A stretch of 40,552 nt of DNA from the NCBI GenBank assembly GCA_028343215.1, contig JAOLYB010000010.1, forward strand, positions 1-40,552, given 5' to 3'. The position numbers and the translations under genes are program-made. This document shows, piece after piece, positions 7,006 through 39,845 of this stretch (positions are counted from its first letter, which is position 1; each line of letters opens with the position of its first letter). Source of the stretch: Candidatus Nitrosopelagicus sp. (GTDB taxonomy: Archaea; Thermoproteota; Nitrososphaeria; Nitrososphaerales; Nitrosopumilaceae). The notes beneath the pieces were generated by a model. The model worked only from the letters and a program-made list of their open reading frames with translations, was not told the origin of the DNA and did not search any database.

Positions 7006-7113
7006 TTTTGACCCTTTTGATGATTTTAGGATTTTAGGCTATAAAATATACTACTCAAAGTTTTTCCATTTCTTTGAAATTTTCAAGCCATCTTCATTGA
7101 TTTGAATAGAAAA

Positions 7114-7121
7114 TATAATTA
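7114..7121 (+). promoter_or_regulatory. TATA-like box for the 2,3-dehydratase gene
   Basis: TATAATTA is centred 26.5 nt before the GTG at 7144, so the transcript is likely leaderless. It supports the GTG as the true start. Confidence 0.55.
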
Positions 7122-7143
7122 AACAACTTATTCAACTTTCTAC

Positions 7144-7893
7144 GTGACTATTGATGAAATTAAAGGGGTATTAGAAAAAAATGGATATGATTTAGATTCT
7201 GATACAATTTCAAGAATCCAAATAATGCTTGAATCCATAAGAGATGATAATCAAATCAATAAACTTGATTACATTATTGACTGGTTTAACAAAAAACGTG
7301 AGGAGTCAGATATGGTAGTAGAAGAAATTGGAATTAATGATTTGGATAAATGGAATGTGGATCCAGATACGGGTAATATCAAACATGAATCTGGAGGATT
7401 TTTTGAAGTAATTGGTGTCAAAGCATCAAATACATTTGATCGTGAAGTTGGAAAGAAAGGTTGGACTCAACCAATGATTGCAAAAAACCCTGGTGGCATT
7501 CTGGGAATTCTAATGAAAAGAATTAACGGTATACCACATTATCTCTTACAGGCAAAAGCAGAACCAGGTAATATTGGAAAACTACAACTATCGCCAACTC
7601 TTCAAGCCACAACAAGTAATTTACTAAAAGCACATGGAGGATCTAAGCCTTTGTTTGCAGAATATTTTGATGATGAAAACAATCCAAAAATTATTTATGC
7701 AAAGTGGCAATCTGAAGATGGTGGTAGATTTCATTTAAAATCAAACTACAATATGATAATCGAAATCAAGGAAAATGAAAATTTGGAAATTCCAGACTCA
7801 TTCATTTGGGTTACATTATATCAAATTAAACAACTGATGAAGATTGAAAACTTTGTTGGTCCACACGTAAGAGGAATTATTTCTTATTTGTAA
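7144..7893 (+). CDS. NDP-hexose 2,3-dehydratase family protein, single-domain (half-size) form
   Basis: In deoxysugar pathways this family removes the C2 hydroxyl of NDP-4-keto-6-deoxyglucose, giving a 3,4-diketo-2,6-dideoxy sugar. The signature is clear: W near residue 72, a HESGGFFEVIGV block, W-x-QP, GGILGILMKR, LLQAKAEPGNIG, then LQLSPTLQATTSNL with a following HGG. Actinobacterial antibiotic enzymes (EvaA/TylCVI/SpnO type) contain this domain twice in about 450-480 residues. This protein has it once in 249 residues, after a predicted helical N-terminus of about 65 residues, so it would have to act as a homodimer. The start is GTG with a TATA box at leaderless distance. The next gene, 4 nt downstream, is the expected reductase partner. 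Confidence 0.88.
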   Translation: MTIDEIKGVLEKNGYDLDSDTISRIQIMLESIRDDNQINKLDYIIDWFNKKREESDMVVEEIGINDLDKWNVDPDTGNIKHESGGFFEVIGVKASNTFDREVGKKGWTQPMIAKNPGGILGILMKRINGIPHYLLQAKAEPGNIGKLQLSPTLQATTSNLLKAHGGSKPLFAEYFDDENNPKIIYAKWQSEDGGRFHLKSNYNMIIEIKENENLEIPDSFIWVTLYQIKQLMKIENFVGPHVRGIISYL

Positions 7894-7897
7894 TAAA

Positions 7898-8929
7898 ATG
7901 GAACCTCTAAAATTTGGTATAATTGGTTGTTCACGAATTGCAAAACGTTCTGTAATTCCTGCTATAATAAAATCAGAATTTGCAGAACTTGAAATAATTG
8001 GAAGTCGTTTGACAGACAAAGCAAAAGAATTTGCTAAGGAGTTTAACTGTGAAAAATTTGGTACTTATGAAGATGTAATTTCAGATGATTCAGTTGATGC
8101 AGTATACATCTCAACTCCAATTGGAACACATGCAGAATTGTCCAACAAGGCAGCAGCTGCAGGAAAACATGTTTACGTTGAAAAATCCTCTACATATTTT
8201 CTAAATTATGCAAAAGAAATGGTTGAGACTGCAAAACAAAACAATGTACGACTAATGGAGGGTTTTATGTTTCGATTTCATCCACAACATCAAAAAGTCA
8301 AGGAATTGATTAATGAAAACAAAATTGGAGATATTGTGACTTTTAATGGTAGATTTGGATTTCCATCTTTTCCAGAAGGTGATATTAGATATAGCGATCT
8401 TAGAGGTGGTGGATTCTTGAACGATTCTGGATGTTATCCAATTTGTGCAAGTAGAATGATCTTGGATGAAGAACCAATTTCAGTAGGATGTAGATTACAA
8501 TACATTCAAGTAAATGGAATCACTGATTCGGTTGATGTTAAAGGCACATCTTTTTTGATATATGAAAATAACAAATCTGCATCTATTACATTTGGAAACG
8601 GAAATTATTACCAAGCAAAATATGAAGTGTGGGGAACGAATGGCATAATATCTGCAGATAGAGCTTACTCTGTACCTTCAGATTTTACAACTAAGATTAG
8701 TCTACAGTATAATACAGCGAATAATTGGGAAAGCAGAAGAAATGATACATTTGAAATTAAACCTAAAGATCATTTTCTAGAAATTCTGGATACTTTTTGT
8801 ATGGAAATTACTAAAACAAAAAATGCACCATATAATTTTGAAGATGAGTTATTGAAACAGGCAAAAGTAATGCAAGCTCATAGACGTTCATCAGATACAG
8901 GAAAGCAAGTATTTCTTAGTGAATTATGA
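7898..8929 (+). CDS. Gfo/Idh/MocA-family oxidoreductase, candidate NDP-3,4-diketo-2,6-dideoxyhexose 3-ketoreductase
   Basis: 343 residues with an N-terminal Rossmann fold (KFGIIGCSRIAKRSVIP, nucleotide binding) and a C-terminal GFO/IDH alpha/beta domain. The family EKP motif appears as VEKSS near residue 93, with the Lys kept and the Pro replaced by Ser. A later NDSGCYPICAS matches the DxGxY-type catalytic segment that carries the Tyr. Members such as TylCII/KijD10/SpnN reduce the product of the 2,3-dehydratase at C3. The 4-nt gap to that dehydratase makes this the best assignment. Together they should give an NDP-4-keto-2,6-dideoxyhexose. A generic sugar dehydrogenase role cannot be excluded. 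Its 3' end overlaps the convergent aminotransferase by 6 bp. Confidence 0.85.
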   Translation: MEPLKFGIIGCSRIAKRSVIPAIIKSEFAELEIIGSRLTDKAKEFAKEFNCEKFGTYEDVISDDSVDAVYISTPIGTHAELSNKAAAAGKHVYVEKSSTYFLNYAKEMVETAKQNNVRLMEGFMFRFHPQHQKVKELINENKIGDIVTFNGRFGFPSFPEGDIRYSDLRGGGFLNDSGCYPICASRMILDEEPISVGCRLQYIQVNGITDSVDVKGTSFLIYENNKSASITFGNGNYYQAKYEVWGTNGIISADRAYSVPSDFTTKISLQYNTANNWESRRNDTFEIKPKDHFLEILDTFCMEITKTKNAPYNFEDELLKQAKVMQAHRRSSDTGKQVFLSEL

Positions 8930-10081
8930 TGTAGATTTGATTACTCTAATTACTGCATCTTGATGTTTCTTTGATATATTTGGGAATAATGGAAGTGCTA
9001 AAATCTCATCATAAGTTTTTACAGTATTAACAACATTAGATTTCTTTGCAAACTTGCGATATGCTGCGTATTCATGAATTGGCATCCAATACACAGTTGT
9101 TCTAATTCCATTGTCTTTCAGTTTCTTATACAACTGATTTCTTGATAATTTGAAGGGTTTGGCCACGCGAATTGTATACAAATGATATGAATGTGTTTTG
9201 TCATTCACCATATCTGGCAAAATTATTCCAGGAATATTTTGTAAATTCTTATGATAATAGAGTGATGCTTTTTTACGAAGTTCATTTATTTTTTTAATTC
9301 TCTTTAATTGTGTAATTCCTAATGCGGATCTAATCTCATCCAATCGATAATTATATCCTGGTTCAATAATATCAAAAACCCAAGGATACTCACTTGAATA
9401 GCGACTTTTCAGAGATTTTGTCATTCCATGACTACGTAGTTGTCTTACTTTCTCAGCAATTTCCTTTGAATTTGTGGTAACCATTCCACCTTCAGCAGTT
9501 GTAATATTTTTGGTTGGGTAAAATGAAAAACATCCAGTATTTCCTAATGTTCCCACATGTTTTGATTTATGAAATGTTCCAACTGCATGTGCACAATCTT
9601 CTACAACTTTTAGATTGTGGTCTTTTGCCAAATCTAAAATTTCTTCAATATTACAAACTTGTCCATAGATGTGAACTGGAATTATTGCTTTAGTTCTTTT
9701 TGTGATACTTTTTTTAACATTTGAAATGGATAAAAAGAAATTTTCTTTATTAATATCTGCAACCACAGGTTTCGCGTTACAAGCAAGTACTGCATTTGCA
9801 TCTGCCACAAATGTAAGATCTGGAATAATGACCTCATCATTTTCTTTGATTCCCAATGCCATTAATGATAAATGAAGTGCTGCGGTACAATTGGATACTG
9901 CAATAGCATATTTTGCTTTTGAATATTTGCAAAAATCAGATTCAAATTTTTCTAACTGTGGGCCAAGTGTTAACATGCTCTGTGAGAGTGTTTTATTGAT
10001 GATTTTCTTATCATCTCCAGAAATCCATGGTTCATAAGCAGGAAATTTAATTTTTGAATCTTTAAAAAAGTCCTTTTTCAT
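8924..10081 (-). CDS. DegT/DnrJ/EryC1/StrS-family PLP aminotransferase (NDP-ketosugar aminotransferase)
   Basis: Transfers an amino group, usually from glutamate, to an NDP-ketohexose. The PLP lysine lies in SFYPTKNITTAEGG (K196 counting from an upstream TTG). Other family blocks are NCTAALHLSLMALGI, VEDCAHAVGT with the cofactor Asp, and GYNYRLDEIRSALG near the C-terminus. The frame can start at TTG 10096, but ATG 10081 has GGAG nine nt upstream and suits a gene internal to an operon after the GT4, so I use it. Convergent with the 2,3-dehydratase/reductase pair, it could aminate their 4-keto product to a 4-amino-2,4,6-trideoxyhexose, as SpnR does. PseC-like action on a UDP-4-keto sugar is the alternative. 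Confidence 0.88.
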   Translation of the reverse strand: MKKDFFKDSKIKFPAYEPWISGDDKKIINKTLSQSMLTLGPQLEKFESDFCKYSKAKYAIAVSNCTAALHLSLMALGIKENDEVIIPDLTFVADANAVLACNAKPVVADINKENFFLSISNVKKSITKRTKAIIPVHIYGQVCNIEEILDLAKDHNLKVVEDCAHAVGTFHKSKHVGTLGNTGCFSFYPTKNITTAEGGMVTTNSKEIAEKVRQLRSHGMTKSLKSRYSSEYPWVFDIIEPGYNYRLDEIRSALGITQLKRIKKINELRKKASLYYHKNLQNIPGIILPDMVNDKTHSYHLYTIRVAKPFKLSRNQLYKKLKDNGIRTTVYWMPIHEYAAYRKFAKKSNVVNTVKTYDEILALPLFPNISKKHQDAVIRVIKSTS

Positions 10082-10101
10082 ATTCTCATACTCCAAGTCC
10101 T

Positions 10102-18380: not shown

Positions 18381-19322
18381 ATGAATTTTAAATTATTATT
18401 ATCAGTTTTTGTCGCTATAACTTTTACAGGTATTATTTTCTCAACTTCGATGAGTTTTTACATTAATAGCTATGATCCTGATTGGTATGGACTATTATCA
18501 AATAATTCTCTGGATTCAACTCCGAAAGAAAAAATTTTTTTGTTAGGTTCTAGTACAGTTTATTCAGTTAATTCAACATTTGTAAACAATTATTTTGCAA
18601 AAAATGATGTTAATTATGAATTTTTTAACTTGGCTGATATGTCTGATAGTCCAAAAAAACGAATACATAGCATATCGAACATCATATCCAATAATCCTGC
18701 AATTGTAATCTATGGGATAGATGTAGGAGATTTCAGAACAGAAATAAAAAATGAAATTTCTTTAGAGGAAATTATCATTCATCCAAAAAATTTCTTTTTA
18801 TATCAATTTGAAGATTTTATGGAGCCAATCAGAGATAAAATTCCCGGTTCCCCAAAAGATCGATCATTACTCACCATCAAATATTTTCTTTTTGGCCCTC
18901 AACCACATCACCATCCCTTCATAAATTTCTATGAAACATCTGTTACTCCTACTCATGAACTTAAACTGAATTTTAATGACAATTTTGAATCCAAAAAATT
19001 AGATCTTTCTGACGAGAATGAAGAAATAAAATCTCTAAAAGTAATAATTAATGAATTAAAAAAAAATAACATAAAATTAATTTTATTCACGGCTCCAAAA
19101 TTAATTCAAGAAGTAAGTGATTCTGATATACAATTTTTTGAAAAAACCTTATTGACTTATTCAAATGAATATAATTTTCCAGTATATTTTCTTCATGATA
19201 AATATGTAGAACTTGAAATCTGGAGAGATTCACAACATGTGGCGATAAATAATGATACTCAAATCTATACAGAAAATATGACAGAAATTCTACTAAAGGA
19301 GATTAAGAATTTTGCTATTTAA
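18381..19322 (+). CDS. Membrane-anchored SGNH-fold protein, DltD/AlgJ-like partner of the MBOAT acyltransferase
   Basis: 313 residues with a single N-terminal membrane anchor (about 5-28) and an extracytoplasmic domain. FLLGSSTVY (G56-S57-S58) is the SGNH block I in the GSS form seen in DltD, and the C-terminal D283-x2-H286 in RDSQHVA completes a Ser-Asp-His set. Between them are YGIDVGDFR and LILFTAPK strands. The gene overlaps the MBOAT gene by 11 bp. An SGNH protein beside an MBOAT is the pattern of DltD/DltB and AlgJ/AlgI, in which the pair moves an acyl group across the membrane onto a surface polymer. Overall similarity to DltD is only structural, so this is an analogue call. Confidence 0.75.
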   Translation: MNFKLLLSVFVAITFTGIIFSTSMSFYINSYDPDWYGLLSNNSLDSTPKEKIFLLGSSTVYSVNSTFVNNYFAKNDVNYEFFNLADMSDSPKKRIHSISNIISNNPAIVIYGIDVGDFRTEIKNEISLEEIIIHPKNFFLYQFEDFMEPIRDKIPGSPKDRSLLTIKYFLFGPQPHHHPFINFYETSVTPTHELKLNFNDNFESKKLDLSDENEEIKSLKVIINELKKNNIKLILFTAPKLIQEVSDSDIQFFEKTLLTYSNEYNFPVYFLHDKYVELEIWRDSQHVAINNDTQIYTENMTEILLKEIKNFAI

Positions 19323-20787
19323 CTCACTAGATTTTTTAGTATTTTTCTTTGTTATATTATGTATAATTTCATTTTTCAAATTTAGAAGATTTCAACATCT
19401 CTTTCTAATCTTTTCCAGTCTTTTTTTCCTCTATTATACAGATAATTATCTTGTAACTCTATTGATATTTACTATTTTGCTTCATTTTTATGTTGGACGA
19501 GAAATTTATAATTCTCAAACAATTATCCGAAAAAAAATATTTTTTGTTATTGGACTTATAGGTAGTATTGGTGTACTTGGATTTTTCAAATATACTGATT
19601 TTGTAATATCACAACTTAATGTATTTGGAACAATTATAGATCTTAATTCTGAAATTCCTTTGTTAAATTTAGCTTTACCAATTGGAATATCATTTTACAC
19701 ATTCCAATCTATGAGCTACATCATTGATATTTATCGAGGAAGTCTAAAGCCATCTAAAACTCTTAAGGAATATGCATTTTTTGTTGCTTTTTTTCCACCA
19801 CTTGTAGCTGGTCCAATATTAAGAGCAAGTGAATTTTTACCTCAACTTAGAGAAAAAATTTCTCAAAATGAAGTGTCACAAAAATTAAAACTATTTGTTA
19901 TTACCAATACAAATTTAAAATTTGGTATAACGTTAATGTCGATTGGATTTTTCAAAAAAATGTTTTTTTCTGATAATATTGGACCTATCGTAAATAATAT
20001 TTTTTCTAATCCACTTGGATTGGAATCATTTTCTATAATGATTGGAACTATTGCTTTTGGTATTCAGCTTTATTGTGATTTTTCTGGTTATTCTGATATT
20101 GCAATAGGCGCAGCTGCTATACTTGGATTTAAAATTCCATTAAATTTTAACAAGCCATTCTTTGCTTCATCTCCATCTGATTTTTGGACACGATGGCACA
20201 TTAGTTTATCAACATGGGTCCGTGATTATTTGTATTACCCATTAGTTTTTAAAAATAGAAAATCAGAAGGTCTTGTTTTCATTAGTTTAATTATTTCAAT
20301 GCTCTTAATGGGAATTTGGCATGGCGCGTCTTGGAATTTCCTGATTTGGGGTGGTATACATGGTTTATTTTTAGCGTGTTATACGATTCTTAGAAAGAAA
20401 TTTCCTACTGCATCTTCTAATAAATTCTTTAAATCTAAAATCGGTAAAATTTCTAGTATTTTAGTAACTCAGTATTTGATATTCTTTACTTTCATTGCTT
20501 TTTGGATGAAAGATTTTGATCATATGGCATATGCCATGAAGAAGTATGTTCTTTTAGATTTTTCAACAGCTGGTACAATTGAAATTATACGTGATAATGA
20601 ACTTCCGATTCTACTAATGATTTTATTTATGATATTGCATTTTATATCATACAAAAAAGGAAATATCGCTGAAAGAATTTCCAAATTAAAAATTCACTAT
20701 TGGACTAGTATCTTATTCATATTTTTCTTATCAATTGCAATATTTTATGTTGGAAGTGCGCGAGAATTCATATATTTCCAATTTTGA
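19312..20787 (+). CDS. MBOAT-family O-acyltransferase (AlgI/DltB/PatA-like)
   Basis: 491 residues with about 11-12 hydrophobic helices. It has the full MBOAT signature: SFYTFQSMSYIIDIYRG, PLVAGPILRASEFLPQL, YCDFSGYSDIAIGAAAILGF, FWTRWHISLSTWVRDYLYYPL and MGIWHGASWNFLIWGGIHG with the invariant active-site His. These enzymes pass an acyl group from an intracellular thioester donor through the membrane to an exported polysaccharide. In DltB the donor is a carrier protein. The FkbH-ACP-MaoC genes follow 50 nt downstream, so a carrier-protein thioester is a likely donor here too. Family membership is near certain; the acyl group is not known. Confidence 0.93.
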   Translation: MLFNSLDFLVFFFVILCIISFFKFRRFQHLFLIFSSLFFLYYTDNYLVTLLIFTILLHFYVGREIYNSQTIIRKKIFFVIGLIGSIGVLGFFKYTDFVISQLNVFGTIIDLNSEIPLLNLALPIGISFYTFQSMSYIIDIYRGSLKPSKTLKEYAFFVAFFPPLVAGPILRASEFLPQLREKISQNEVSQKLKLFVITNTNLKFGITLMSIGFFKKMFFSDNIGPIVNNIFSNPLGLESFSIMIGTIAFGIQLYCDFSGYSDIAIGAAAILGFKIPLNFNKPFFASSPSDFWTRWHISLSTWVRDYLYYPLVFKNRKSEGLVFISLIISMLLMGIWHGASWNFLIWGGIHGLFLACYTILRKKFPTASSNKFFKSKIGKISSILVTQYLIFFTFIAFWMKDFDHMAYAMKKYVLLDFSTAGTIEIIRDNELPILLMILFMILHFISYKKGNIAERISKLKIHYWTSILFIFFLSIAIFYVGSAREFIYFQF

Positions 20788-20806
20788 TCAAAGCATTCAA
20801 TCATAA

Positions 20807-20814
20807 TATTTATC
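20807..20814 (+). promoter_or_regulatory. TATA-like box for the FkbH-ACP-MaoC genes
   Basis: TATTTATC is centred 27.5 nt before ATG 20838, so the FkbH gene may have its own leaderless promoter as well as readthrough from the MBOAT gene. Confidence 0.4.
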
Positions 20815-20837
20815 ATTGAAAAATTTTTAATGTTAAT

Positions 20838-22583
20838 ATGGAAAAAAACCTTTCAGAATATGTTTCCATTTCAAAAAATATTGAAAATTTAAAACTTGAA
20901 AAAACAGTGAAAATAGCAATAATGTCAAGTTTTACATTAAATGGATTAGATGAAACTATTCGTGTAATGTGTTCCGAACTTGATACACGATGCCACTCAT
21001 ATGTTTCTGGTTACAACCAATATAATCAAGAATTATTAAATTCTCAAAGTAATTATTATGATTTTTCACCTAATATCACATTTTTAATTTTAGATATTAG
21101 AAATTTTCTAGGTGATACTTTTCATTATCCATATGATATATCTGATGAAGAACGAAAATTACTTGTAAAAGAAAAAACTGAACAATTAGAAAATATAATA
21201 TCTCTTTTTGAAAAAAATACAAAATCTAAATTAGTTATTTCAAATTTTAATATTCCATTTTATTCACCTAATGGAATTATTGAAACAAAATCTAATTTTG
21301 GATTTCATGAAATGATTGAAGAGATTAATAGTTCATTACGTCAAATGTGTAAGGAAAAAAATTCAATTTATGTATATGATTTCAATAATTTTGTTTCAAG
21401 ATATGGTGAAAATAATATTTTTGATTATAGACAATTTCACGTAGGTGATATTCAAATTACTTACAATTTAATTCCAAATTTAGCAAATGATTTGATGAGT
21501 TATGTAAAACCATTATTAGGAAAAACTCGAAAGTGTATCGTTTTAGATTTAGATAATACGTTATGGGGTGGTATTGTAGGTGAAGATGGAATTAATGGAA
21601 TTGAATTGGGTCATACCCCGACAGGTAAGGCATTTGTTGAATTCCAAAAAGAATTATTATCATTATGGAATCAGGGGATAATTTTGTCAATAAATAGTAA
21701 AAATAATTTTGATGATGCAATGAAAGTTATTCGTGAACATCCTGACATGATTTTACGCGAAAAACATTTTGCTAGCATTCAAATTAATTGGAATGATAAA
21801 GCAGAAAATATGATACAAATTTCCACTGAAGCAAATATTGGATTAGACAGTTTTGTATTCTTTGATGATGATAAATTAAATCAAGAGAGAATTAAACATG
21901 AATTTCCTGAAATTTTAACAGTTAATGTTTCAGATGATCCTTCTAATTTTGTACCTATACTAAAAGGAATTAATGATTTTAACGTATTACATAGAACAAC
22001 TGAAGATAGCAATAGAGGTGAAATGTATGCACAACAAAGACAACGTAGGAATTTTGAAAATTCTGTATCAAACTTAGATGAATTTTTAAAACAATTGAAA
22101 ATTAAAGTAAAAATCAAAAAAGCAAATAAATTTTTAACGCCCAGAATTTCTCAACTCACACTAAAAACTAACCAATTTAATTTAACAACTAAGAGATATC
22201 AGGAAGAAGAAATTCAAAAGTTGTCCAATAATGAAAATTTTGAGGTTGGATGTGCTCAAGTTTTAGATAAATTTGGTGATAATGGAATTACTGGAGTATA
22301 CATAATCGAAAAAAATAAAAATTTATGGATAATTGATACCTTTTTGCTTAGTTGTAGGATAATAGGTCGAGGAATTGAAACTGCAATTTTAACTGAAATA
22401 GTTAAAAAAGCAAAACAAAACGGAATTACTGAATTAAGGGCTAATTTTATTCCTACCTTAAAAAATAAGCCATCGGAAAATTTTCTTTCCGATTTTGGGT
22501 TTCAAAAAAATAATGATTATTGGATCTATGATTTAAATAATGAAATTAAAACATCAAATCACTTGGAAGTTGAAACTGATTAA
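20838..22583 (+). CDS. FkbH-like HAD-IIIC protein with SGNH-like N-terminus and GNAT-like C-terminus
   Basis: 581 residues in three parts. About 25-225 is the helper domain found in long FkbH-like proteins. About 230-390 is the HAD domain with CIVLDLDNTLWGGIVGEDG (D237 and D239 of the DxDxT motif), then LSINSKNNFDDA and SFVFFDDDKLNQERI. About 410-570 is a GNAT-like domain with LLSCRIIGRGIE and a PTLKNKPSENF block. FkbH enzymes take the glyceryl group from 1,3-bisphosphoglycerate, dephosphorylate it and load it on an acyl carrier protein. All HAD catalytic residues are present. The stop TAA overlaps the ATG of the carrier protein gene by one base (TAATG), so loader and carrier are coupled. The C3 product is an inference from the family. 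Confidence 0.88.
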   Translation: MEKNLSEYVSISKNIENLKLEKTVKIAIMSSFTLNGLDETIRVMCSELDTRCHSYVSGYNQYNQELLNSQSNYYDFSPNITFLILDIRNFLGDTFHYPYDISDEERKLLVKEKTEQLENIISLFEKNTKSKLVISNFNIPFYSPNGIIETKSNFGFHEMIEEINSSLRQMCKEKNSIYVYDFNNFVSRYGENNIFDYRQFHVGDIQITYNLIPNLANDLMSYVKPLLGKTRKCIVLDLDNTLWGGIVGEDGINGIELGHTPTGKAFVEFQKELLSLWNQGIILSINSKNNFDDAMKVIREHPDMILREKHFASIQINWNDKAENMIQISTEANIGLDSFVFFDDDKLNQERIKHEFPEILTVNVSDDPSNFVPILKGINDFNVLHRTTEDSNRGEMYAQQRQRRNFENSVSNLDEFLKQLKIKVKIKKANKFLTPRISQLTLKTNQFNLTTKRYQEEEIQKLSNNENFEVGCAQVLDKFGDNGITGVYIIEKNKNLWIIDTFLLSCRIIGRGIETAILTEIVKKAKQNGITELRANFIPTLKNKPSENFLSDFGFQKNNDYWIYDLNNEIKTSNHLEVETD

Positions 22584-22822
22584 TGACTGATAATGTTCAT
22601 GCAATTGTTGCTAAAGTTTTTTCAATTTCTGAAACTGATGTTAATGACGAATCTGGTCCCGAAAATATTGAATCATGGGATTCATTCAATGGTTTAATTT
22701 TAGTTGATGAACTTGAAAATAATTTTAAAATTAAATTCTCAATTTCTGAAATTACTGATGTAAAAACAGTGGCAGATATTAAAAGACATCTTAAAAACCA
22801 TAATGTATCTGTCAATGAATGA
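22583..22822 (+). CDS. Acyl carrier protein, FkbH-associated type
   Basis: 79 residues, acidic, four-helix ACP size. The phosphopantetheine site is SWDSFNGLIL with Ser34; W-D-S followed by a hydrophobic residue is the form usual for carrier proteins beside FkbH enzymes. The LVDELENNFKIKFSISEI segment after it is the recognition helix II region. It should carry a small acyl group (glyceryl or a derivative) as a thioester. Archaea generally lack fatty-acid-synthase ACPs, so this carrier probably serves glycan decoration only. It overlaps FkbH by 1 bp and the MaoC gene by 8 bp. Priming could come from the AcpS-type gene at 39480-39845. Confidence 0.9.
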   Translation: MTDNVHAIVAKVFSISETDVNDESGPENIESWDSFNGLILVDELENNFKIKFSISEITDVKTVADIKRHLKNHNVSVNE

Positions 22823-23246
22823 TAAAGTTTCTGAATATACTTTTAATGATATTGAAATAGGTTTTTCAAAAAAATTTCAAGTTATTATCACGGAATCACT
22901 TGTAAAACAATTTGCTTCTGTTTCTGGAGACTATAGTCCTATTCATTTGGATGAAAAATATGCAAAATCTACAACTTTTAAAAAAAGAGTTGTTCATGGA
23001 ATGCTGCTGGCGTCATTTCTTTCACGTGTAGATGGTATGTATTTACCTGGTAAACATGCATTATATTTTTCACAAAATATTGAATTTAGAAATCCTTGTT
23101 TTATTGGAGATACAGTCACAATTTTCAGTAAGGTTATTGACAAAAGCGAATCAACAAAAATTTTAAAAATTGAATCTGAAATTATAAATCAAGAAAATAA
23201 ATTACTGCTTTACGGTTTAGGTCGTGTAATTGTAAGAGATGATTAA
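22815..23246 (+). CDS. MaoC-like (R)-hydratase/dehydratase, hotdog fold
   Basis: About 143 residues, single-hotdog size. The hydratase motif is SGDYSPIHLDEKYA, with the Asp-His catalytic pair, then VVHGMLLASFLSR and NIEFRNPCFIGDTV, the family's conserved blocks. Known members add or remove water on acyl-CoA or acyl-ACP thioesters. Being translationally coupled to the carrier protein suggests it works on the ACP-bound group, for example dehydrating or hydrating a hydroxyacyl thioester. ATG 22815 is preferred over in-frame ATG 22803 because the protein then starts just before the conserved YTFNDIEIG segment and overlaps the ACP stop. It closes the unit. Confidence 0.88.
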   Translation: MNDKVSEYTFNDIEIGFSKKFQVIITESLVKQFASVSGDYSPIHLDEKYAKSTTFKKRVVHGMLLASFLSRVDGMYLPGKHALYFSQNIEFRNPCFIGDTVTIFSKVIDKSESTKILKIESEIINQENKLLLYGLGRVIVRDD

Positions 23247-28585: not shown

Positions 28586-29317
28586 TCAAATTTTCATCTT
28601 TTCGATTTTTCTTATTTGCTGAACCATTTCTGATAATTTTTCAGTTGTTATGGATGTTGATGCGTCAGGACCTTTAGAATCATTTGATTTGACATGTTTT
28701 TCAATGTAAATTCTTTTTGATAATTTCTGCTTTTTTAACATTGAATACAAAACTGGTGCCAAAATATCCATTGTGTGATCTGAAAAACCATCATATTTTA
28801 TAGCATCTTTCCAATTAATTTTTTCAAATGATAATGGGTATTCTGATATACAGTAACAATATGTAATATTTTTTTTATTAAAAATTTTAGAAATTTTCTT
28901 TTTATTTCCTCCCATTCCCATGCTAATGAAAATTTCTTTTTTTGAATTATTCTTTTCTTCTAATACTTCAAGAGAATATGGATCTGTAAACTTGCACGTT
29001 CTTGATGCAACTTTAAATTTTTTTACACCTAATTTTGAAAGGTAAGTTACAGCCTCTGGATAAAATGCACTACAGAAAAATTCAATTTTTTCTTTATCAC
29101 AAAATTCTTTTAATTTTTTTGTAATTTGAAATGTAAGTTCTGACTTTTTTATTTCATTCCAATTCGGGTGATCTTTTGTATAAAGATCTGTGGCTCTCCA
29201 CATCTGGAATTTTACTGCATCTGCTCCAGCTTTTTTACATTCACGAATAATTTTTTTTGCTTTTGAGAAACTTCCTTCCCAGTTTGAACCTATTTCTGCT
29301 ACTACTAGTACTTTCAT
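28586..29317 (-). CDS. NeuB/PseI-family sialic-acid-type synthase lacking the SAF domain
   Basis: Enzymes of this family condense phosphoenolpyruvate with a hexosamine to make nonulosonic acids. The TIM-barrel motifs are present: VVAEIGSNWEGS (the usual NHNG reads NWEG), ADAVKFQMW, KKFKVASRTCKFTDP, FISMGMGG, CYCISEYPLSFE, FDGFSDHT-like YDGFSDHT, and IEKHVKSND with GPDASTS. At 243 residues it ends right after the barrel; typical members have about 340-350 residues with a C-terminal antifreeze-like SAF domain that completes the active site. It may use a partner SAF protein, act on a different substrate, or be altered in activity. A TATA-like element (29341-29348, minus strand) lies 27.5 nt before its ATG. 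Confidence 0.82.
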   Translation of the reverse strand: MKVLVVAEIGSNWEGSFSKAKKIIRECKKAGADAVKFQMWRATDLYTKDHPNWNEIKKSELTFQITKKLKEFCDKEKIEFFCSAFYPEAVTYLSKLGVKKFKVASRTCKFTDPYSLEVLEEKNNSKKEIFISMGMGGNKKKISKIFNKKNITYCYCISEYPLSFEKINWKDAIKYDGFSDHTMDILAPVLYSMLKKQKLSKRIYIEKHVKSNDSKGPDASTSITTEKLSEMVQQIRKIEKMKI

Positions 29318-30194: not shown

Positions 30195-31196
30195 ATGTTT
30201 CGTGGAAAAAAAATCCTAATAACTGGTGGAACAGGTTCACTAGGAACTGCATTAACCTCTAGATTACTTAATGAAGGAGTTGACACAATTCGAATTTTCA
30301 GTAGAAATGAGAATAAACAGATTACGATGGAATCAAAATTTAAAGATGATAGACTACGGTTTTTGTTAGGAGATATACGGGATTATTCAAGGCTGGTACG
30401 TGCCATGGAAGATATTGACATAGTGTTCCATGCCGCCGCATTGAAACATGTTCCAATAATAGAATACAATCCATTTGAAGCGATTAAAACTAATGTTATT
30501 GGTTCCCAAAATGTAATTGATGCGTGCCTTGAAGAAAATATACCAAAAGCAGTTGCAGTTGGAACTGATAAAGCTGTATCTCCATTGAATACTTATGGCG
30601 CAACTAAATTACTTATGGAAAAATTATTTGTCACTGCAAGTAATTATTTACAAAAAGATCGACATCAAACAAATTTTGTTGCATTGCGGTATGGTAATGT
30701 ATTAGGAAGTAGTGGATCAGTAATTCCTAAGTTCATTGAACAAATAAAAAATAAAGAAAAGATTACTATCACAGATCCTTCAATGACTAGATTCAGCATA
30801 ACAATGGATGAAGCATTAGATTTCATTCTTAAAGCCACAGAAATTTCCAAAGGTTCAGAAATTTTTATTCCTAAATTACAAGCATATTCGATTTCAGGAA
30901 TCAAAGATGCATTATTTGATTTGTTGGGAAATACTGGTTCCGATATTATTGGTATTCGTGAAGGTGAAAAAATGAATGAAGTTTTGCTCAATCGTGAAGA
31001 AATTCGCTATAGTTGGGAATATGAAAATATGTACATGGTTCTAAATCCTCTGTCAAAAAATAACGTTCCAATTGACGAATATTCAAATGCAACCAAGGTA
31101 GACAGTATGGACGAATATAGTTCTGACTCAGTGAAAAAATTCTCCATTGAAGAAATGAAGAAAATTATTACTAACTCTAAATTATTAACTAAATAA
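30195..31196 (+). CDS. NDP-N-acetylhexosamine 4,6-dehydratase (PseB/FlaA1/CapD short form)
   Basis: 333 residues. It should convert UDP-GlcNAc to a UDP-4-keto-6-deoxy-hexosamine with tightly bound NADP. KKILITGGTGSLGTAL is the Rossmann loop. FHAAALKHVPIIEYNPFEAIKTNVIG, AVAVGTDKAVSPLNTYGATK and MTRFSITMDEALDFI are diagnostic of the PseB subfamily of extended SDRs. The TDKA segment replaces the common S-x-Y-x3-K arrangement of ordinary SDRs. There are no N-terminal membrane helices, so it is the soluble short form. The product could feed the aminotransferase at 8924-10081, the double-GNAT protein or the NeuB-like synthase. A complete pseudaminic acid pathway is not shown. Confidence 0.9.
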   Translation: MFRGKKILITGGTGSLGTALTSRLLNEGVDTIRIFSRNENKQITMESKFKDDRLRFLLGDIRDYSRLVRAMEDIDIVFHAAALKHVPIIEYNPFEAIKTNVIGSQNVIDACLEENIPKAVAVGTDKAVSPLNTYGATKLLMEKLFVTASNYLQKDRHQTNFVALRYGNVLGSSGSVIPKFIEQIKNKEKITITDPSMTRFSITMDEALDFILKATEISKGSEIFIPKLQAYSISGIKDALFDLLGNTGSDIIGIREGEKMNEVLLNREEIRYSWEYENMYMVLNPLSKNNVPIDEYSNATKVDSMDEYSSDSVKKFSIEEMKKIITNSKLLTK

Positions 31197-34020: not shown

Positions 34021-34042
34021 TGCCTGATTGTTTTTTGATTTG

Positions 34043-35431
34043 ATGGAAAATACATCTAAAATTGGTAATGAAATGTATAATTTAATTGAAAATTTGTATC
34101 CAATTTGTAGAAGTATAACTGGGAATGGTACGAGAGAAACTTTACAAATTATTTCAAAAATAATTCCTATCCAAATTCATGAGGTATCTTCTGGAACAAG
34201 TGTTTTTGATTGGACAATTCCAAATGAATGGAACATAAAAGACGCGTATATCAAATCTCCAACAGGTGAAAAGATAATTGATTTTAAAAAATCTAATTTA
34301 CATATTTTATATTACAGTCTTCCAATAAATAAAAAAATTACATTAAACGAACTTAAAGAACATATTTTCACACAACCTGATAGGCCGAAAGACATTCCTT
34401 ATAGAACTTCTTACTATTCTGAAAAATGGGGCTTCTGCATGAGTCATGAACAATTTTTAAAACTTGAAGATGGTGACTATGAAGTTGTAATTGACTCTGA
34501 ATTAAAATCAGGAAGCTTATCGTATGGTGAGTATTACTTTAAAGGAAATTCCGATGAAGAAATACTACTTTCTTGTTACATTTGTCATCCTTCTTTATGC
34601 AATGATAGCTTATCTGGGGTTGTTACTGCTGTTGAATTAGCTAAATTTATTGAAGAATTAAAACAAAAAACAAATTACTCATACAGAATTTTATTCATAC
34701 CTGAAACAATTGGTTCTATCACTTGGTTGTCTCGTAATCAAGAAAAAATTAAAAATATTAAACATGGTTTAGTTATAACTTGTACCGGAGATAAAGGAAA
34801 AATAAATTATAAGAAAACTCGTAATGGAAATTCAGAAATCGATAAAATAGTAATTGATGTTTTAGAAAATTCAAATGAAGACTTTTCAGTTCTTGATTAT
34901 TTCCCTTTTGGTTCTGATGAGCGTCAATATTGTTATCCTGGAATTAATCTAAACATGGGTTGTTTAACCAGAACTGTATTTGGTGATTTTCCAGAATATC
35001 ACACATCTGCAGATAATTTGACATATGTTAGTCCGTTACCTCTTGCCAACACATTAAAAATATACATTAGAATAATTGAAAAACTGGAAGAAAATTATGC
35101 CAAATTCCAGTTGAACGGCAGTACCACTAAAAAAATTAAAAAATCATTGTCTGTTGATCCGGTTTTTGTGAATCTTGTAAAATGTGAACCTCAACTGGGA
35201 AAAAGAAATCTTTACCATGATCTCGGCGGTCCAAAACTCAAACCTTTTCATGGAAGGGGTTCCAAAGATACAACAAAAATAAAAGAAAAGGCAATGATGT
35301 GGATTTTAGCTTATTCTGATGGCACCAACTCACTAAAAGATATTGAAGTAAAATCTAACATTGATTTTGAAACATTAATTCAAATTTCAAATTTGTTATG
35401 TGATCACAAATTAATTAAAGAATTAAAGTAA
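34043..35431 (+). CDS. DUF4910/DUF2172 aminopeptidase-fold protein with C-terminal winged-helix-like segment
   Basis: 462 residues. This family has an M28-like metallopeptidase core interrupted by an inserted domain and followed by a small helix-turn-helix-like domain. SICRSITGNGTRETL-type residues (CRSITGNGTRETLQ) open it. Metal-ligand candidates are CYICHPSLCNDSLSG (His and Asp), FIPETIGS (Glu), FGSDERQYC (Asp) and FPEYHTSADN (His). The last 80 residues (GLNDL-like SDGTNSLKDIEVKSN region) form the winged-helix-like tail. Members are common in bacterial capsule and O-antigen loci, where their substrate is unclear. An amidase or acyl-hydrolase acting on aminoacylated sugars would fit this setting. 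All ligands appear intact. Confidence 0.82.
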   Translation: MENTSKIGNEMYNLIENLYPICRSITGNGTRETLQIISKIIPIQIHEVSSGTSVFDWTIPNEWNIKDAYIKSPTGEKIIDFKKSNLHILYYSLPINKKITLNELKEHIFTQPDRPKDIPYRTSYYSEKWGFCMSHEQFLKLEDGDYEVVIDSELKSGSLSYGEYYFKGNSDEEILLSCYICHPSLCNDSLSGVVTAVELAKFIEELKQKTNYSYRILFIPETIGSITWLSRNQEKIKNIKHGLVITCTGDKGKINYKKTRNGNSEIDKIVIDVLENSNEDFSVLDYFPFGSDERQYCYPGINLNMGCLTRTVFGDFPEYHTSADNLTYVSPLPLANTLKIYIRIIEKLEENYAKFQLNGSTTKKIKKSLSVDPVFVNLVKCEPQLGKRNLYHDLGGPKLKPFHGRGSKDTTKIKEKAMMWILAYSDGTNSLKDIEVKSNIDFETLIQISNLLCDHKLIKELK

Positions 35432-35491: not shown

Positions 35492-36289
35492 ATGAATGAA
35501 TTTCAAAATTATGATGATCTTGAGAATTATTTCTCTGATACATTTGTTAAATTAGGCGTAAAAGATTATGATTTTTGTTATATCTATAGTGATTTGAGAT
35601 TTTTTGCTTCATCTATGAAAATTGATATTGAAAAAGACAGATTTTGCAACTCAATAATTTCTCCTTTACTTAATCTCAAAAAAACAATTATCATACCTAC
35701 ATTTTCTTATACAACTGAAGGCGTTTTTGATGTTGAAAAAACTCCTACTTCACTTGGTACTCTCAACTCATGGATACTTAGGCAATCAAATGTAAAAAGA
35801 TCTAATCATCCCTTATTTTCATTTGGAGCACTGGGTCCTAAATCATCCCTAGTTGAAAATTGTGGAAAATCTGCTTTTGGAAAAAATTCAGTTCATGACA
35901 ATTTAAGAGAAAATAAATGCTGTTTCATAAATATTGGAAGAGCAATAGAAAAAGGTAATACAATAATTCATAATATTGAACAATCTTGTGAGGCTAAGTA
36001 TAGATTTAACAAAGTTTTTAAAACTTCTGTATTAAAGAAAAATAAATTGTTTGATTCTGATTATTCTGCTTTTGTAAGAAGACAAGACGTACCTGATCAT
36101 GATTTTAAATTTAATTTCATTGAAGCTGCAAAAATAATTTATTCAGAAGGAATTGTACATGAAGTTGGTGATTCAGAGTTATTATCAAATATTTCTTTAT
36201 ACGATTATGATAAAACTCGTGCCATTCTTGTTAAAGCTTTTATAAAAAATTCATCTATCTTTTTGTCTAAGCCTTTCACCCAATTTTGA
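35492..36289 (+). CDS. AAC(3)/YokD-family acyltransferase
   Basis: 265 residues. The family that includes aminoglycoside 3-N-acetyltransferases moves an acyl group from a pantetheine thioester to an amine. Visible blocks are a LGVKDYDFCYIYSDL N-terminus, IIIPTFSYTTEGVFD, GTLNSWILRQSNVKRSNHPLFSFGALG (the conserved HP-x2-S-x-G region), and a NTIIHNIEQSCEAKYRF segment with the active-site His-Glu area. It is the first gene of an operon with an acyl carrier protein 10 nt downstream, so it probably uses an ACP thioester to acylate an aminosugar rather than conferring drug resistance. The TGA stop overlaps the GAGG ribosome-binding site of the ACP gene. Confidence 0.82.
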   Translation: MNEFQNYDDLENYFSDTFVKLGVKDYDFCYIYSDLRFFASSMKIDIEKDRFCNSIISPLLNLKKTIIIPTFSYTTEGVFDVEKTPTSLGTLNSWILRQSNVKRSNHPLFSFGALGPKSSLVENCGKSAFGKNSVHDNLRENKCCFINIGRAIEKGNTIIHNIEQSCEAKYRFNKVFKTSVLKKNKLFDSDYSAFVRRQDVPDHDFKFNFIEAAKIIYSEGIVHEVGDSELLSNISLYDYDKTRAILVKAFIKNSSIFLSKPFTQF

Positions 36290-36298
36290 GGTTTTTAA

Positions 36299-36538
36299 AT
36301 GGAATTTTCTAAGAAAGAAAAAATCATTTGTAATTTCTTTGTTGAACGTGAAGGTGAAGAAATTTTGAAAGTTATAAAAAAAATTGATTTCATAGATGAA
36401 GGTATTTTAGATTCACTTGATGTAGTAAGCTTGGCAGCATTTCTACAAAAAGAATTTAAAAAAAAGATAGATGTCACAAATTATGAAACTATGCAAGCTT
36501 TTCATCATTTTGACGATATTGTAAAATTAGTAATATGA
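36299..36538 (+). CDS. Acyl/peptidyl carrier protein, canonical GxxDSL type
   Basis: 79 residues with a basic N-terminus and the carrier-protein signature FIDEGILDSLDVVSLAAFLQ; Ser39 in D38-S39-L40 is the 4'-phosphopantetheine site. It differs clearly from the other carrier protein of the window (WDSF type), so each probably has its own loading enzyme. GAGG at 36288-36291, inside the stop of the AAC(3)-like gene, sits 7 nt before the ATG as ribosome-binding site. Its stop overlaps the VOC gene start (ATGA). The AMP ligase two genes downstream is the likely loader, as DltA is for DltC. Confidence 0.9.
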   Translation: MEFSKKEKIICNFFVEREGEEILKVIKKIDFIDEGILDSLDVVSLAAFLQKEFKKKIDVTNYETMQAFHHFDDIVKLVI

Positions 36539-36945
36539 AAAAAATGCATCATATCGGTATTGTTTCTGAAAACATAGATCTTGCATTAAATGCACTTAAT
36601 TTGAATAAATCTGATATCAATGAAATAATTGATGATCATGTACAAAATAATTACTTACATTTTATTAGATTAGAAAATAATGATCCTTGGATAGAGATTA
36701 TTACTCCAAAAAATAATAATTCTACAATTTTTAATTTTTCTCAAAAATATAAAATGGGATTACATCATATGGGTTTTTTGTGTAATAGTATAGAAGAAAT
36801 CAAATCTAAATTCAATACTAATACTAATGTAGTAACATTGGGTACGTACGAGTTAACAGTAAACTCTTTTGGTGGACAAATTTCAACCTTATTCATGTCT
36901 GCTAACAATTTGATTACTGAATACGTTGAACTAAAAAATGAATAA
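36535..36945 (+). CDS. VOC-superfamily protein, methylmalonyl-CoA-epimerase/glyoxalase-like
   Basis: 136 residues forming two beta-alpha-beta-beta-beta units. MHHIGIVSENI and LHHMGFLCNSI each bring a His, and PWIEIITP and LITEYVEL each bring a Glu. This is the two-His two-Glu metal set of methylmalonyl-CoA epimerase and related enzymes. Those abstract a proton next to a thioester carbonyl, so in an operon between a carrier protein and an AMP ligase it may epimerise or isomerise the carrier-bound acyl group. Its start overlaps the ACP stop by 4 bp and its end overlaps the ligase by 8 bp. The reaction is inferred, not shown. Confidence 0.8.
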   Translation: MKKMHHIGIVSENIDLALNALNLNKSDINEIIDDHVQNNYLHFIRLENNDPWIEIITPKNNNSTIFNFSQKYKMGLHHMGFLCNSIEEIKSKFNTNTNVVTLGTYELTVNSFGGQISTLFMSANNLITEYVELKNE

Positions 36946-38449
36946 AAAAAATTTTTCTGACATAATTCATCAAAAATTAACTCTGTCTGAGAAAATTATT
37001 TTAAAAGATGGATGGAATGATTGGACCTGGAAAAATTTGATTTTTCGTTCATTTGCGTATGCTGAATTTATTAAAAATAATTATTCAGATGTAGATATTC
37101 CTGCAATTCCAATAATCGTAGGACGTTCTGGTGAAAGTATTGCTGCTATGATGGGATCAATTTTGGCCGGTTACCCATTTGCACCTATTTCTCATACTCA
37201 GCCATCTGTTCGAATTAAGAATATCATTGATTCCTTAAATGCATCTCATGCAATTTCTGGTCTTCATTCATTGGAACAAAAACCAGAAAAATTAGAAATT
37301 TTAGAATTATCAAAAAATAAATTACTCCAAAAATTTTCTTCTCAATCTAAAAAAAGCAAAATATTGTATCTTTTGTTTACATCTGGGTCAACTGGAAAAC
37401 CAAAAGGTGTACTATGTTCTACTAATAATATTATGAATACTATGAATTGGAGTAAAAAATACTTAGATTGGAATAAATCTGATGTAATAGGTTGCGCTAC
37501 ACAATTCTCTTTTGATATTTCATTATTTGATTTCTTTACAATGTTGTATTTTGATGTCCCACTAGCCATTCTGGATAAAATTTCTAGTCCACAAGAAGTC
37601 ACTAAACAAATTTCAACTTTTAAGGTGTCTTCTATTTTTTCTGTACCTGCATTTTTTTCACAATTTACAACAAAGAGTTCAATAAAAAATATTTCTGAAA
37701 CTAAACTTAGAAGAATAATTGCTGGAGGTGATTTTTTTTCACCTAAGCATATTCATTTTTGGATGAAAAACTTTCCAAAAATATCCATATACAATGTTTG
37801 GGGACCAACTGAAACTTCAATTGTCAATTCAATGCATAAAATTACGAAAAGAGATATTAAAAAAATTGAAAAAGGTCAATACACTTCAATAGGAAAATCC
37901 ACACTTTTAATGCAATTAGTACTGGTAAATTCAAAAAATGAATTGATTTCAAAACATAATGAAATTGGAGAATTAGCAGTTCTTGGAAAATCTGTAAGCA
38001 TGGGTTACTATAATTCTCCTAGTGAAACAGAGAAAAAATATTTCATGTTTAATAAAAAACCTGCATTTAAAACAGGAGATTTAGGATATAAGGATAAAAA
38101 TGATAATTTTTACTTGGTTGGAAGAAATGATAATATTGTAAAAATGCACGGTTACAGAATTGATTTGAATGAGATTGAAAAAACATTAAATAATTTTTCT
38201 AACGTTTATGCAACTTCTGTATTTGTAAATAAAATTTCCAATGCCCATAGTGAATTATGGGCAGCTTTAGAGTTACAAAATAAGAATGTAAAACTAAATG
38301 TATTTGAAACTAAAAAGAAGCTCCGAAAATTATTACCAAGTTATATGGTGCCAAAACGTCTACTTGTCATGCCTAAATTACCTCTAACTATTAATGGAAA
38401 ATTAGATAAAAAAGAGGTATTGAAATATGTTCGTCAAAATGCAATATAA
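36938..38449 (+). CDS. AMP-forming acyl/amino-acid ligase, DltA-like adenylation domain
   Basis: 503 residues, the length of DltA and free-standing NRPS adenylation domains. Core motifs are present in order: A3 LFTSGSTGKPKGV (about 147-157), A4 FSFDISLFDFF, A5 NVWGPTETSI, A7 FKTGDLG, A8 GRNDNIVKMHGYRIDLNEIE and A10 LPLTINGKLDKKE with the catalytic Lys. It should activate a carboxylic or amino acid with ATP and load it on the carrier protein encoded two genes upstream. There are no condensation or thioesterase domains, so this is not an NRPS. An amino acid is likelier than a fatty acid given the A-domain type motifs, but the substrate cannot be read. Confidence 0.9.
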   Translation: MNKKNFSDIIHQKLTLSEKIILKDGWNDWTWKNLIFRSFAYAEFIKNNYSDVDIPAIPIIVGRSGESIAAMMGSILAGYPFAPISHTQPSVRIKNIIDSLNASHAISGLHSLEQKPEKLEILELSKNKLLQKFSSQSKKSKILYLLFTSGSTGKPKGVLCSTNNIMNTMNWSKKYLDWNKSDVIGCATQFSFDISLFDFFTMLYFDVPLAILDKISSPQEVTKQISTFKVSSIFSVPAFFSQFTTKSSIKNISETKLRRIIAGGDFFSPKHIHFWMKNFPKISIYNVWGPTETSIVNSMHKITKRDIKKIEKGQYTSIGKSTLLMQLVLVNSKNELISKHNEIGELAVLGKSVSMGYYNSPSETEKKYFMFNKKPAFKTGDLGYKDKNDNFYLVGRNDNIVKMHGYRIDLNEIEKTLNNFSNVYATSVFVNKISNAHSELWAALELQNKNVKLNVFETKKKLRKLLPSYMVPKRLLVMPKLPLTINGKLDKKEVLKYVRQNAI

Positions 38450-38504: not shown

Positions 38505-39479
38505 ATGAAAATTGTTGTTTTTGGATTAAATCGAAATGTACTTGAATTAATTGATATGTTAATTGATGGTGGGTATGAAATTTTATCATTAATTCCTCCA
38601 ACTGAGAAAAAAAATAGTGATTACACAAAAGATCGTCTTTTTGGTAAGAAAAAAATAAAGATATCAATTTTACACACCAAAAATATTAACGAGACTGATT
38701 TCATAAAACAAATTAAAAATCTAAAGACTGATCTATTTGTTAATTGGGAACATTCACAAATTTTTTCAAAAGAATTACTTTCATGTCCAAGAATTGGTTC
38801 ATTGAATTTTCATAGAGGTTTGTTACCTGATGCACGTGGATTTGATCCTATCCTTGGTGAGAGATTGAATGGAATTGAGACTTTAGGTCAAACTGTACAT
38901 TTTATGACGAATAAAATAGATAAAGGAAAGATTATCAGTAAACGAAATTTCAAAATTGATAAAAAATTATATCGAGTTGAAATTGATAAAATTTTTCAAA
39001 ATGGAGTCGTAGAATTTTATTATGATGCAATAAAAAAAGCAATTGACGGTCATTCAATCAAACATGATGATACTTTTGGAAGATATTATCCTAAATCTGC
39101 TTTTGATAAAGAAATATTGGATTGGCAACAAAAATCAGATTTAATTTTAGCACGTATAAGAACTGCTAATCCATTTAATCCGTGCGTTACTTACCTATCT
39201 GGTTCGTATGATGAAGTGAAAATACTAAAATCTACTGAAAGTGATGTAAAAGATTACAATTCTACCATTGGGCAAATAATTGATCGAGATAATTCCTTAG
39301 GGAATTTAGTCAAAACTCTGGATAATGCAATTTGGTTAAATGAAATAAAAATAAATGAAAAAATTCAAACGCCATCATTTCCAATTGGAACTACATTTGT
39401 TTCCAATTGGATTCATGAAACTATGTCCTTACATAAGAGACTAAAAGATTTAGAAAATAGAATAAATCATTTGGAATAA
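38505..39479 (+). CDS. Formyltransferase-family protein, candidate sugar N-formyltransferase
   Basis: 324 residues. The N-terminal domain starts KIVVFGLNRNVLELIDML and holds the catalytic set of 10-formyl-tetrahydrofolate transferases: N101 and H103 in SLNFHRGLLPDARGFDP and D139 in NKIDKGKII. A C-terminal domain follows (about 200-300), then a short coiled tail (LHKRLKDLENRINHLE). It is not a methionyl-tRNA formyltransferase: archaea do not formylate initiator Met, and the setting is glycan synthesis. Formylation of a 4-amino sugar such as that made by the aminotransferase at 8924-10081 is a good guess, as for VioF-type enzymes. Its stop abuts the stop of the convergent AcpS gene with no spacer. 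Confidence 0.85.
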   Translation: MKIVVFGLNRNVLELIDMLIDGGYEILSLIPPTEKKNSDYTKDRLFGKKKIKISILHTKNINETDFIKQIKNLKTDLFVNWEHSQIFSKELLSCPRIGSLNFHRGLLPDARGFDPILGERLNGIETLGQTVHFMTNKIDKGKIISKRNFKIDKKLYRVEIDKIFQNGVVEFYYDAIKKAIDGHSIKHDDTFGRYYPKSAFDKEILDWQQKSDLILARIRTANPFNPCVTYLSGSYDEVKILKSTESDVKDYNSTIGQIIDRDNSLGNLVKTLDNAIWLNEIKINEKIQTPSFPIGTTFVSNWIHETMSLHKRLKDLENRINHLE

Positions 39480-39845
39480 TTAATTATTTTTTATAGATAT
39501 AGCAACTGCAATCGCAAATTCCTTTTCATGTGAAATCGATGCTATAAAATTATATCTGTTCGGTAGTGATTTTTTTATTTTGACTGTCGGTTTTGAATTT
39601 GTATGACCTGTTACTATTTCTAAGAATCCGACATCTTCATTAATTGATTTGATTACTGCTTCCTTTAGTGCAAATTTACCCGCAAAATGCTCATATGGAG
39701 ATTTAAATTTTTTACAATATTCAATTTCATCCTCTAAAAATATTTTTTTATAAAAATCAAGATTTGCTTTAAATGGTTTGTTCTTAAATCTACTAACATT
39801 TACGATATCTATACCAATTCCAAATGTATTGTTCACAGTTTTCAA
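39480..39845 (-). CDS. acpS: AcpS-type holo-ACP synthase (4'-phosphopantetheinyl transferase)
   Basis: 121 residues, the size of bacterial AcpS. FGIGIDIVNVSRF carries the magnesium Asp, FAGKFALKEAVIKSI the second acidic ligand, and FIASISHEKEFAIAVA the conserved SISH block. It transfers phosphopantetheine from CoA to the Ser of carrier proteins and is the natural primer for the two carriers at 22583 and 36299. The start is TTG (39845) with a GTG three codons later as alternative. It lies 48 nt after the capsule-type gene on the same strand, so the two may be cotranscribed. AcpS-type enzymes are uncommon in archaea, which makes its placement here informative. Confidence 0.9.
   Translation of the reverse strand: MKTVNNTFGIGIDIVNVSRFKNKPFKANLDFYKKIFLEDEIEYCKKFKSPYEHFAGKFALKEAVIKSINEDVGFLEIVTGHTNSKPTVKIKKSLPNRYNFIASISHEKEFAIAVAISIKNN

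Follow-up and report, generated by a model that had tools for sequence, protein, structure and literature searches.

The 40,552-nucleotide contig JAOLYB010000010.1 of Candidatus Nitrosopelagicus sp. (assembly GCA_028343215.1), referred to below as the window, encodes an AAC(3)-like acyltransferase, a carrier protein, a VOC-fold protein and an amino-acid ligase in adjacent genes, and its closest described counterparts are two bacterial nonulosonic-acid gene neighbourhoods. One of them, CA_C2186-2199 of Clostridium acetobutylicum, includes NeuB (spsE) and aminosugar N-acetyltransferases (Das et al. 2014, PMC4000134). The segment CA_C2192-2199 encodes a glyoxylase (CA_C2192), a DUF4910 protein (CA_C2195), an N-acetyltransferase, an acyl carrier protein (ACP) and a fusion of an N-acetyltransferase with a HAD domain; the glyoxylase is five listed genes away from the ACP, and no role was proposed for either the carrier or the glyoxylase (PMC4000134). 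This neighbourhood and the window both combine NeuB, a glyoxylase/VOC protein, DUF4910, an N-acyltransferase and an ACP. They differ in that C. acetobutylicum has the HAD fusion where the window has the ligase, and this fusion is probably FkbH-like, as are the AAC(3)-FkbH fusions of two loci in our comparison set (L021 and L024; members of the set are cited by L numbers).

The other counterpart is the flagellin pseudaminic-acid region Cj1295-Cj1302 of Campylobacter jejuni. Its DUF4910-family protein Cj1295 is required for a 389-390 Da sugar, namely pseudaminic acid (Pse) with a 5-(2,3-di-O-methylglyceroyl)amino group, and its authors suggested that Cj1295 removes the N-acetyl group and that the glyceroyl group takes its place. 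An N-acetyltransferase (Cj1296/7) adjoins Cj1295, and an FkbH-domain protein (Cj1302) and a putative epimerase (Cj1301) are encoded nearby. In C. jejuni the glyceryl-derived group would be loaded in the FkbH manner, whereas the window encodes an amino-acid ligase, and we know of no such ligase in the C. jejuni Pse glyceroyl step. By analogy, the window seems to hold a system of the type known from C. jejuni and C. acetobutylicum, with an amino-acid ligase replacing FkbH. The initial annotation knew of no described pathway with this gene order; this holds for the exact order within our samples, as the window is the only one of the approximately 70 AAC(3) loci inspected to combine AAC(3), carrier, VOC and ligase, but the two neighbourhoods described above are published relatives.

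From its sequence features, we read the window locus as a carrier-protein-dependent cassette for N-acylation of an aminosugar, most likely a pseudaminic/legionaminic-type nonulosonic-acid precursor or product, and assign this reading a probability of about 0.55. The genes concerned are the following:

34028-35431, plus strand: DUF4910/DUF2172 metallopeptidase-like protein with a C-terminal winged helix (Pfam DUF4910, 2.4e-108; HTH_47, 1.5e-17)
35492-36289, plus strand: AAC(3)-like acyltransferase (Pfam Antibiotic_NAT, 2.4e-13)
36299-36538, plus strand: DltC-like carrier protein with a GILDSLD 4'-phosphopantetheine site (DltC model, 1.6e-5; PP-binding, 0.0013)
36535-36945, plus strand: VOC-fold protein (Glyoxalase_4, 1.1e-7; metmalonyl_epim, 1.4e-8)
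36938-38449, plus strand: amino-acid adenylation enzyme of the DltA/nonribosomal peptide synthetase (NRPS) type (AMP-binding, 8.3e-45; DltA subfamily, 1.1e-77)
38505-39479, plus strand: sugar-type formyltransferase, Fmt/ArnA-like (Formyl_trans_N, 1.4e-17)
39480-39845, minus strand: AcpS-type phosphopantetheinyl transferase (ACPS, 5.7e-14)

In the proposed mechanism, AcpS would put phosphopantetheine on the carrier, and the DltA-like ligase would adenylate a small alpha-amino acid and load it onto the carrier. With the carrier thioester chelated to the metal, the VOC protein would then take off the alpha proton and put it back, giving the D or L configuration, and the AAC(3)-like enzyme would pass the acyl group on to the sugar amine, where it would replace the ordinary acetyl group; DUF4910 may first free this amine. 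What we infer, namely the catalytic steps and their order, the nature of the acceptor and an amino acid as substrate, rests on direct observations of gene content, active-site residue conservation, the phylogenetic type of the ligase, and recurrent coupling of carriers with AAC(3) and VOC genes.

The four genes from AAC(3) to the ligase are intact open reading frames on the plus strand, with the boundaries that the initial annotation had assigned to them. The overlaps of 4 nt (carrier/VOC) and 8 nt (VOC/ligase) were reproduced, while the first gap measures 9 nt, the previously given value of 10 being a coordinate difference. The four-gene unit itself is confirmed, but it is part of a longer same-strand run, with the DUF4910 gene 60 nt upstream of the AAC(3)-like gene and the formyltransferase gene, likely the last of the run, 55 nt downstream of the ligase gene; the AcpS gene is convergent to this run. 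Promoter-like and terminator-like motifs occurred in the window only at chance level and provide no basis for operon limits. The adjacency of the four genes is not a matter of chance, because parts of the architecture, i.e. AAC(3)-carrier, AAC(3)-ligase-carrier and FkbH-carrier-VOC(-AcpS) cassettes, recur across phyla.

Phylogenetic analysis placed the window ligase with NRPS/DltA-type enzymes (support 100/100), separately from the cellular acyl-CoA-type ligases of related archaea. Adenylation (A) domain motifs are retained, including FDIS with Asp235 and NGK with the A10 lysine (Lys517); the Asp of FDxS, equivalent to Asp235 of GrsA, is the residue that we take to bind the alpha-amino group. 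The Asp235 equivalent is common to the ligases of AAC(3) cassettes from Paenibacillus, Clostridia and Acidobacteriota (L023, L113, L114, L180). The protein scores below the DltA equivalog cut-off, and its specificity code, read by eye, is presumably unlike that of DltA. The best model for the carrier is DltC (24.9 bits, sub-threshold), with the DSL serine present; both DltC and ACP models match it, the PP-binding score (19.4 bits) is slightly under the cut-off of 20.8, and a G-x-x-D-S motif is common to this protein and the carriers of L023, L113 and L114. Loading of the carrier by the ligase, as initially suggested, is likely in view of the NRPS/DltA-type A domain, the alpha-amino Asp, the DltC-like carrier and the presence of AcpS in the locus, and the loaded group would be a small acid, probably an amino acid.

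Like the AAC(3) aminoglycoside acetyltransferases, the window AAC(3)-like protein belongs to the Antibiotic_NAT family and keeps the H-x-x-E motif (conserved His160 and Glu163). It differs from them in having a carrier in its operon and in the absence of the Gly-Gly loop near the N terminus, which contacts CoA in AAC(3) structures; against the AAC_3 equivalog model it reaches 24 of 270 bits. Relatives of this protein are rare in the host class (6 of 400 Nitrososphaeria genomes), and genes of this kind adjoin carriers in Bacilli, Clostridia, Acidobacteriota, Verrucomicrobiota and archaea (L020, L023, L113, L114, L119, L122, L180, L206, L208, L209, L211). The order is ligase-carrier-AAC(3) in L211 and AAC(3)-ligase-carrier in L113, L114 and L023, and the carrier and AAC(3) genes overlap in archaeal L020 and in L209 of Verrucomicrobiota. 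Five of the 36 clostridial Antibiotic_NAT loci were carrier-linked, and all five were among the 12 lowest PF02522 scores (<120 bits), with none among the 24 above (Fisher p=0.002, Mann-Whitney p=0.0003, phylogeny ignored). The Gly-Gly loop was present in 2/12 linked and 17/22 unlinked AAC(3) proteins (p=0.001, phylogeny likewise ignored). Recurrent carrier coupling and loss of the loop support the earlier proposal of a carrier-dependent N-acyltransferase, and such transfer by the AAC(3)-like enzyme is likely.

DUF4910 adjoins or is fused to AAC(3)-like proteins in nine loci (L019, L025, L112, L119, L122, L206, L208, L210, L223), and we propose that the window DUF4910 protein either acts as an N-deacylase or works together with the AAC(3)-like enzyme. 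In L112 (6650-8734) the two are fused in one clostridial protein, and this locus also holds NeuB, a carrier, a FabH-like synthase and a MaoC-like protein. An archaeal AAC(3)-like gene in L223 (7957-9504), situated at a contig end, runs into an FkbH-like region and adjoins DUF4910 and NeuB genes. An aldolase-ligase-cyclase-(...)-carrier-AAC(3) order is common to archaeal L020 (3569-7819) and L209 of Verrucomicrobiota (1960-8822), which suggests transfer between domains. The cassettes of L113, L114, L023 and L180 also contain a FabH-like synthase, often together with an SDR protein and a second carrier, a hint that an aminoacyl starter may undergo chain extension.

The AlphaFold2 model of the window VOC protein (predicted local distance difference test score, pLDDT, 84.6) has 3HDP as its best fold match, followed by methylmalonyl-CoA epimerases. 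It shares with these proteins the VOC fold and four aligned metal ligands (His, Gln/Glu, His, Glu), and the corresponding positions H6, E54, H78 and E129 are invariant in the alignment. Identity to the structural matches is 13-20% over the matched region, the score against the methylmalonyl-CoA epimerase equivalog is 35.3 bits (cut-off 114.95), and the context differs, being a carrier rather than CoA or glutathione. A genome scan for the family revealed that several thaumarchaea and Clostridium carry FkbH-carrier-VOC(-AcpS) cassettes and that VOC genes also lie near a carrier or FkbH in Bathyarchaeota, Opitutales and Acidobacteriota. Six same-genus genomes have FkbH-carrier-VOC-AcpS (L231, L232, L234, L237, L239, L042), while four have FkbH-carrier-MaoC-AcpS (L229, L233, L235, L236). 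Members of the MaoC family usually act on acyl thioesters, and of all the observations the exchange of VOC for MaoC at this position speaks most strongly for action of VOC on a carrier-bound group.

The window VOC groups with bacterial and bathyarchaeal carrier-linked VOCs (support 91/85). FkbH loaders give alpha-hydroxy (glyceryl) thioesters and the window ligase probably gives an alpha-amino thioester, so abstraction of the alpha-carbon proton would be the simplest chemistry shared by the VOC-linked loaders. Taken with the methylmalonyl-CoA epimerase-like fold, the metal ligands, the carrier-linked family and the MaoC exchange, this makes the initially suggested alpha-carbon epimerase working on the carrier plausible, a role to which we give slightly less than an even chance. 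The carrier-linked VOC of L122, a locus with the order carrier-FkbH-VOC-AAC(3)-DUF4910-NeuB, shares 44% identity with the 3HDP protein (C. acetobutylicum 'glyoxalase I'), which may correspond to CA_C2192 in the neighbourhood described above. The idea that all relatives of the window VOC are carrier-linked was rejected, since a large thaumarchaeal subfamily is not. A tblastn search with the window VOC against plasmids gave no match. An FkbH-carrier-VOC-AcpS cassette was also found on a contig titled Nitrospina (L060, 8009-10758); its VOC falls inside the thaumarchaeal clade, through either transfer or mis-binning.

The acceptor is suggested by three further genes of the window:

28586-29317, minus strand: NeuB-family nonulosonic-acid synthase (NeuB, 8e-34; N-acetylneuraminate synthase model, 1.3e-38, below its cut-off)
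30195-31196, plus strand: PseB-like UDP-GlcNAc 4,6-dehydratase (TIGR03589 PseB, 344 bits, cut-off 408)
8924-10096, minus strand: PseC-like sugar aminotransferase (TIGR03588 PseC, 366 bits, cut-off 424)

Their presence makes a nonulosonic-acid sugar the likely acceptor, and DUF4910, the AAC(3)-like enzyme, the carrier and the nonulosonate synthase are all encoded within one locus. A search of the assembly detected a single AcpS and, above noise level, two carriers, all three inside the window (a third, weak carrier match with E 0.118 was disregarded). AcpS was found in 14/31 same-genus genomes versus 0/30 other relatives, and 12 of the 13 other same-genus AcpS genes adjoin a carrier that has a loader of the FkbH or ligase type; the remaining one, where its contig ends, shares the locus with NeuB. 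We propose that the window AcpS activates the carriers.

The second carrier belongs to a separate cassette (18381-23246), which resembles a Dlt O-acylation system but has FkbH as the loader. In addition to an SGNH-like protein without a Pfam match, whose likeness was judged by eye, it encodes:

19312-20787: DltB-like MBOAT protein
20838-22583, plus strand: FkbH-type loader (TIGR01686 FkbH, 292 bits)
22583-22822, plus strand: second carrier protein (PP-binding, 2.4e-4, over the cut-off)
22803-23246, plus strand: MaoC-like (de)hydratase (MaoC_dehydratas, 1e-18)

Orthologues of this MaoC protein (54-69% identical) are located between carrier and AcpS in L229, L233, L235 and L236, and in L234 a block similar to the second cassette adjoins FkbH-carrier-VOC-AcpS. 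The AAC(3)-containing cassette resembles DltABCD in that a DltA-like ligase adjoins a DltC-like carrier, but its acyltransferase is AAC(3)-like and soluble, not DltB/DltD, and VOC and DUF4910 are additional. Its identification as a Dlt system was rejected because neither the DltB MBOAT nor DltD is part of the cassette operon; the MBOAT (19312-20787) goes with the other carrier, and the SGNH-like gene likewise belongs to that separate operon.

Several observations weigh against the proposed cassette function or against the role given to VOC within it. The Fisher tests on AAC(3) loci take no account of phylogeny, an archaeal DUF4910-AAC(3) pair (L019) keeps the Gly-Gly loop with no carrier detected, and the structure model of the AAC(3)-like protein, made without an alignment, had a pLDDT of 29.5 and was left unused. 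The ligase specificity residues, read by eye as roughly D-I-F-F-I-G-V-I-V-K, give a weak indication of a small or branched amino acid. The window VOC has a long branch (3.31) and 21-31% identity to its relatives, and its placement among carrier-linked VOCs is unsure; VOCs of the same family are found away from carriers (L031, L043, L048-L058), no VOC was detected in the AAC(3)-amino-acid-ligase-carrier cassettes L023, L113, L114 and L180, and the name glyoxalase I borne by its solved relative 3HDP counts against an epimerase. The same cassette might instead operate with VOC performing another metal-dependent reaction, i.e. glyoxalase-like isomerisation, tautomerisation or hydrolytic proofreading. 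The nearest solved relatives in both sequence and fold are the glyoxalase I structures 3HDP/2QH0 of C. acetobutylicum, the first of which has the close carrier-linked relative in L122 noted above, and the Glu43/Glu48 base of some epimerases is not aligned in the window protein. However, the MaoC exchange and loaders of alpha-OH and alpha-NH2 acyl groups fit alpha-carbon chemistry, and C. acetobutylicum presumably lacks glutathione, so the glyoxalase activity of 3HDP may be incidental; we consider another reaction rather unlikely. The most specific form of the scheme, in which VOC epimerises the carrier-bound aminoacyl group, the AAC(3)-fold enzyme passes it to the amine of a nonulosonic acid, and archaeal carriers serve surface-glycan tailoring only, is put forward tentatively.

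As for the loaded group, a hydroxy or fatty acid would match the cassette versions with acyl-type ligases devoid of Asp235 (L020, L209, L211, L007, L008), which should load acyl groups, and the FkbH versions, which presumably load glyceryl groups; the window ligase, however, retains Asp235 and clusters with amino-acid A domains, and such a load is unlikely here. The genes might also not form a single pathway, the AAC(3)-like and DUF4910 proteins acetylating a sugar from acetyl-CoA and the ligase and carrier feeding another acceptor, e.g. via the MBOAT protein. The pair in L019 with no detected carrier and the co-occurrence of a DltB-like MBOAT with a DltA/DltC-like ligase and carrier speak for such a division, but the MBOAT gene sits in its own operon with FkbH, carrier and MaoC, coupling of AAC(3) to carrier and ligase is seen in several phyla, AAC(3)-FkbH fusions exist, and the window AAC(3) has no Gly-Gly loop, which together make it improbable. 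That the locus is decayed or mis-binned and functionless is very improbable: the source is an incomplete archaeal metagenome-assembled genome (1.06 Mb, 74.7% complete) and AAC(3)-carrier-VOC-ligase was encountered in a single case, but all frames are intact, the active-site residues are conserved, and the window is contiguous over 40 kb with a GC content of 27.5% and glycan genes matching those of same-genus genomes.

The body of papers searched yielded no description of ACP-dependent AAC(3) transfer or of FkbH-carrier-VOC cassettes. This type of cassette is widespread in bacteria and its principle is not unprecedented; epimerisation by VOC is the part of the scheme that would be new chemistry, and, if true, it would add a second fold, beside the NRPS epimerisation domains, that sets stereochemistry on a carrier thioester. 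The analysis provides testable roles for three poorly understood families, i.e. DUF4910, carrier-type AAC(3) and carrier-linked VOC proteins, and annotation of a protein as AAC(3)-family or glyoxalase is probably misleading when its gene lies in a glycan locus. If the N-acylation cassette functions as proposed, a group of marine ammonia-oxidising archaea, among which AcpS was found in this genus only, would keep a carrier system to decorate their surface sugars, which are where phage and grazers meet the cell.

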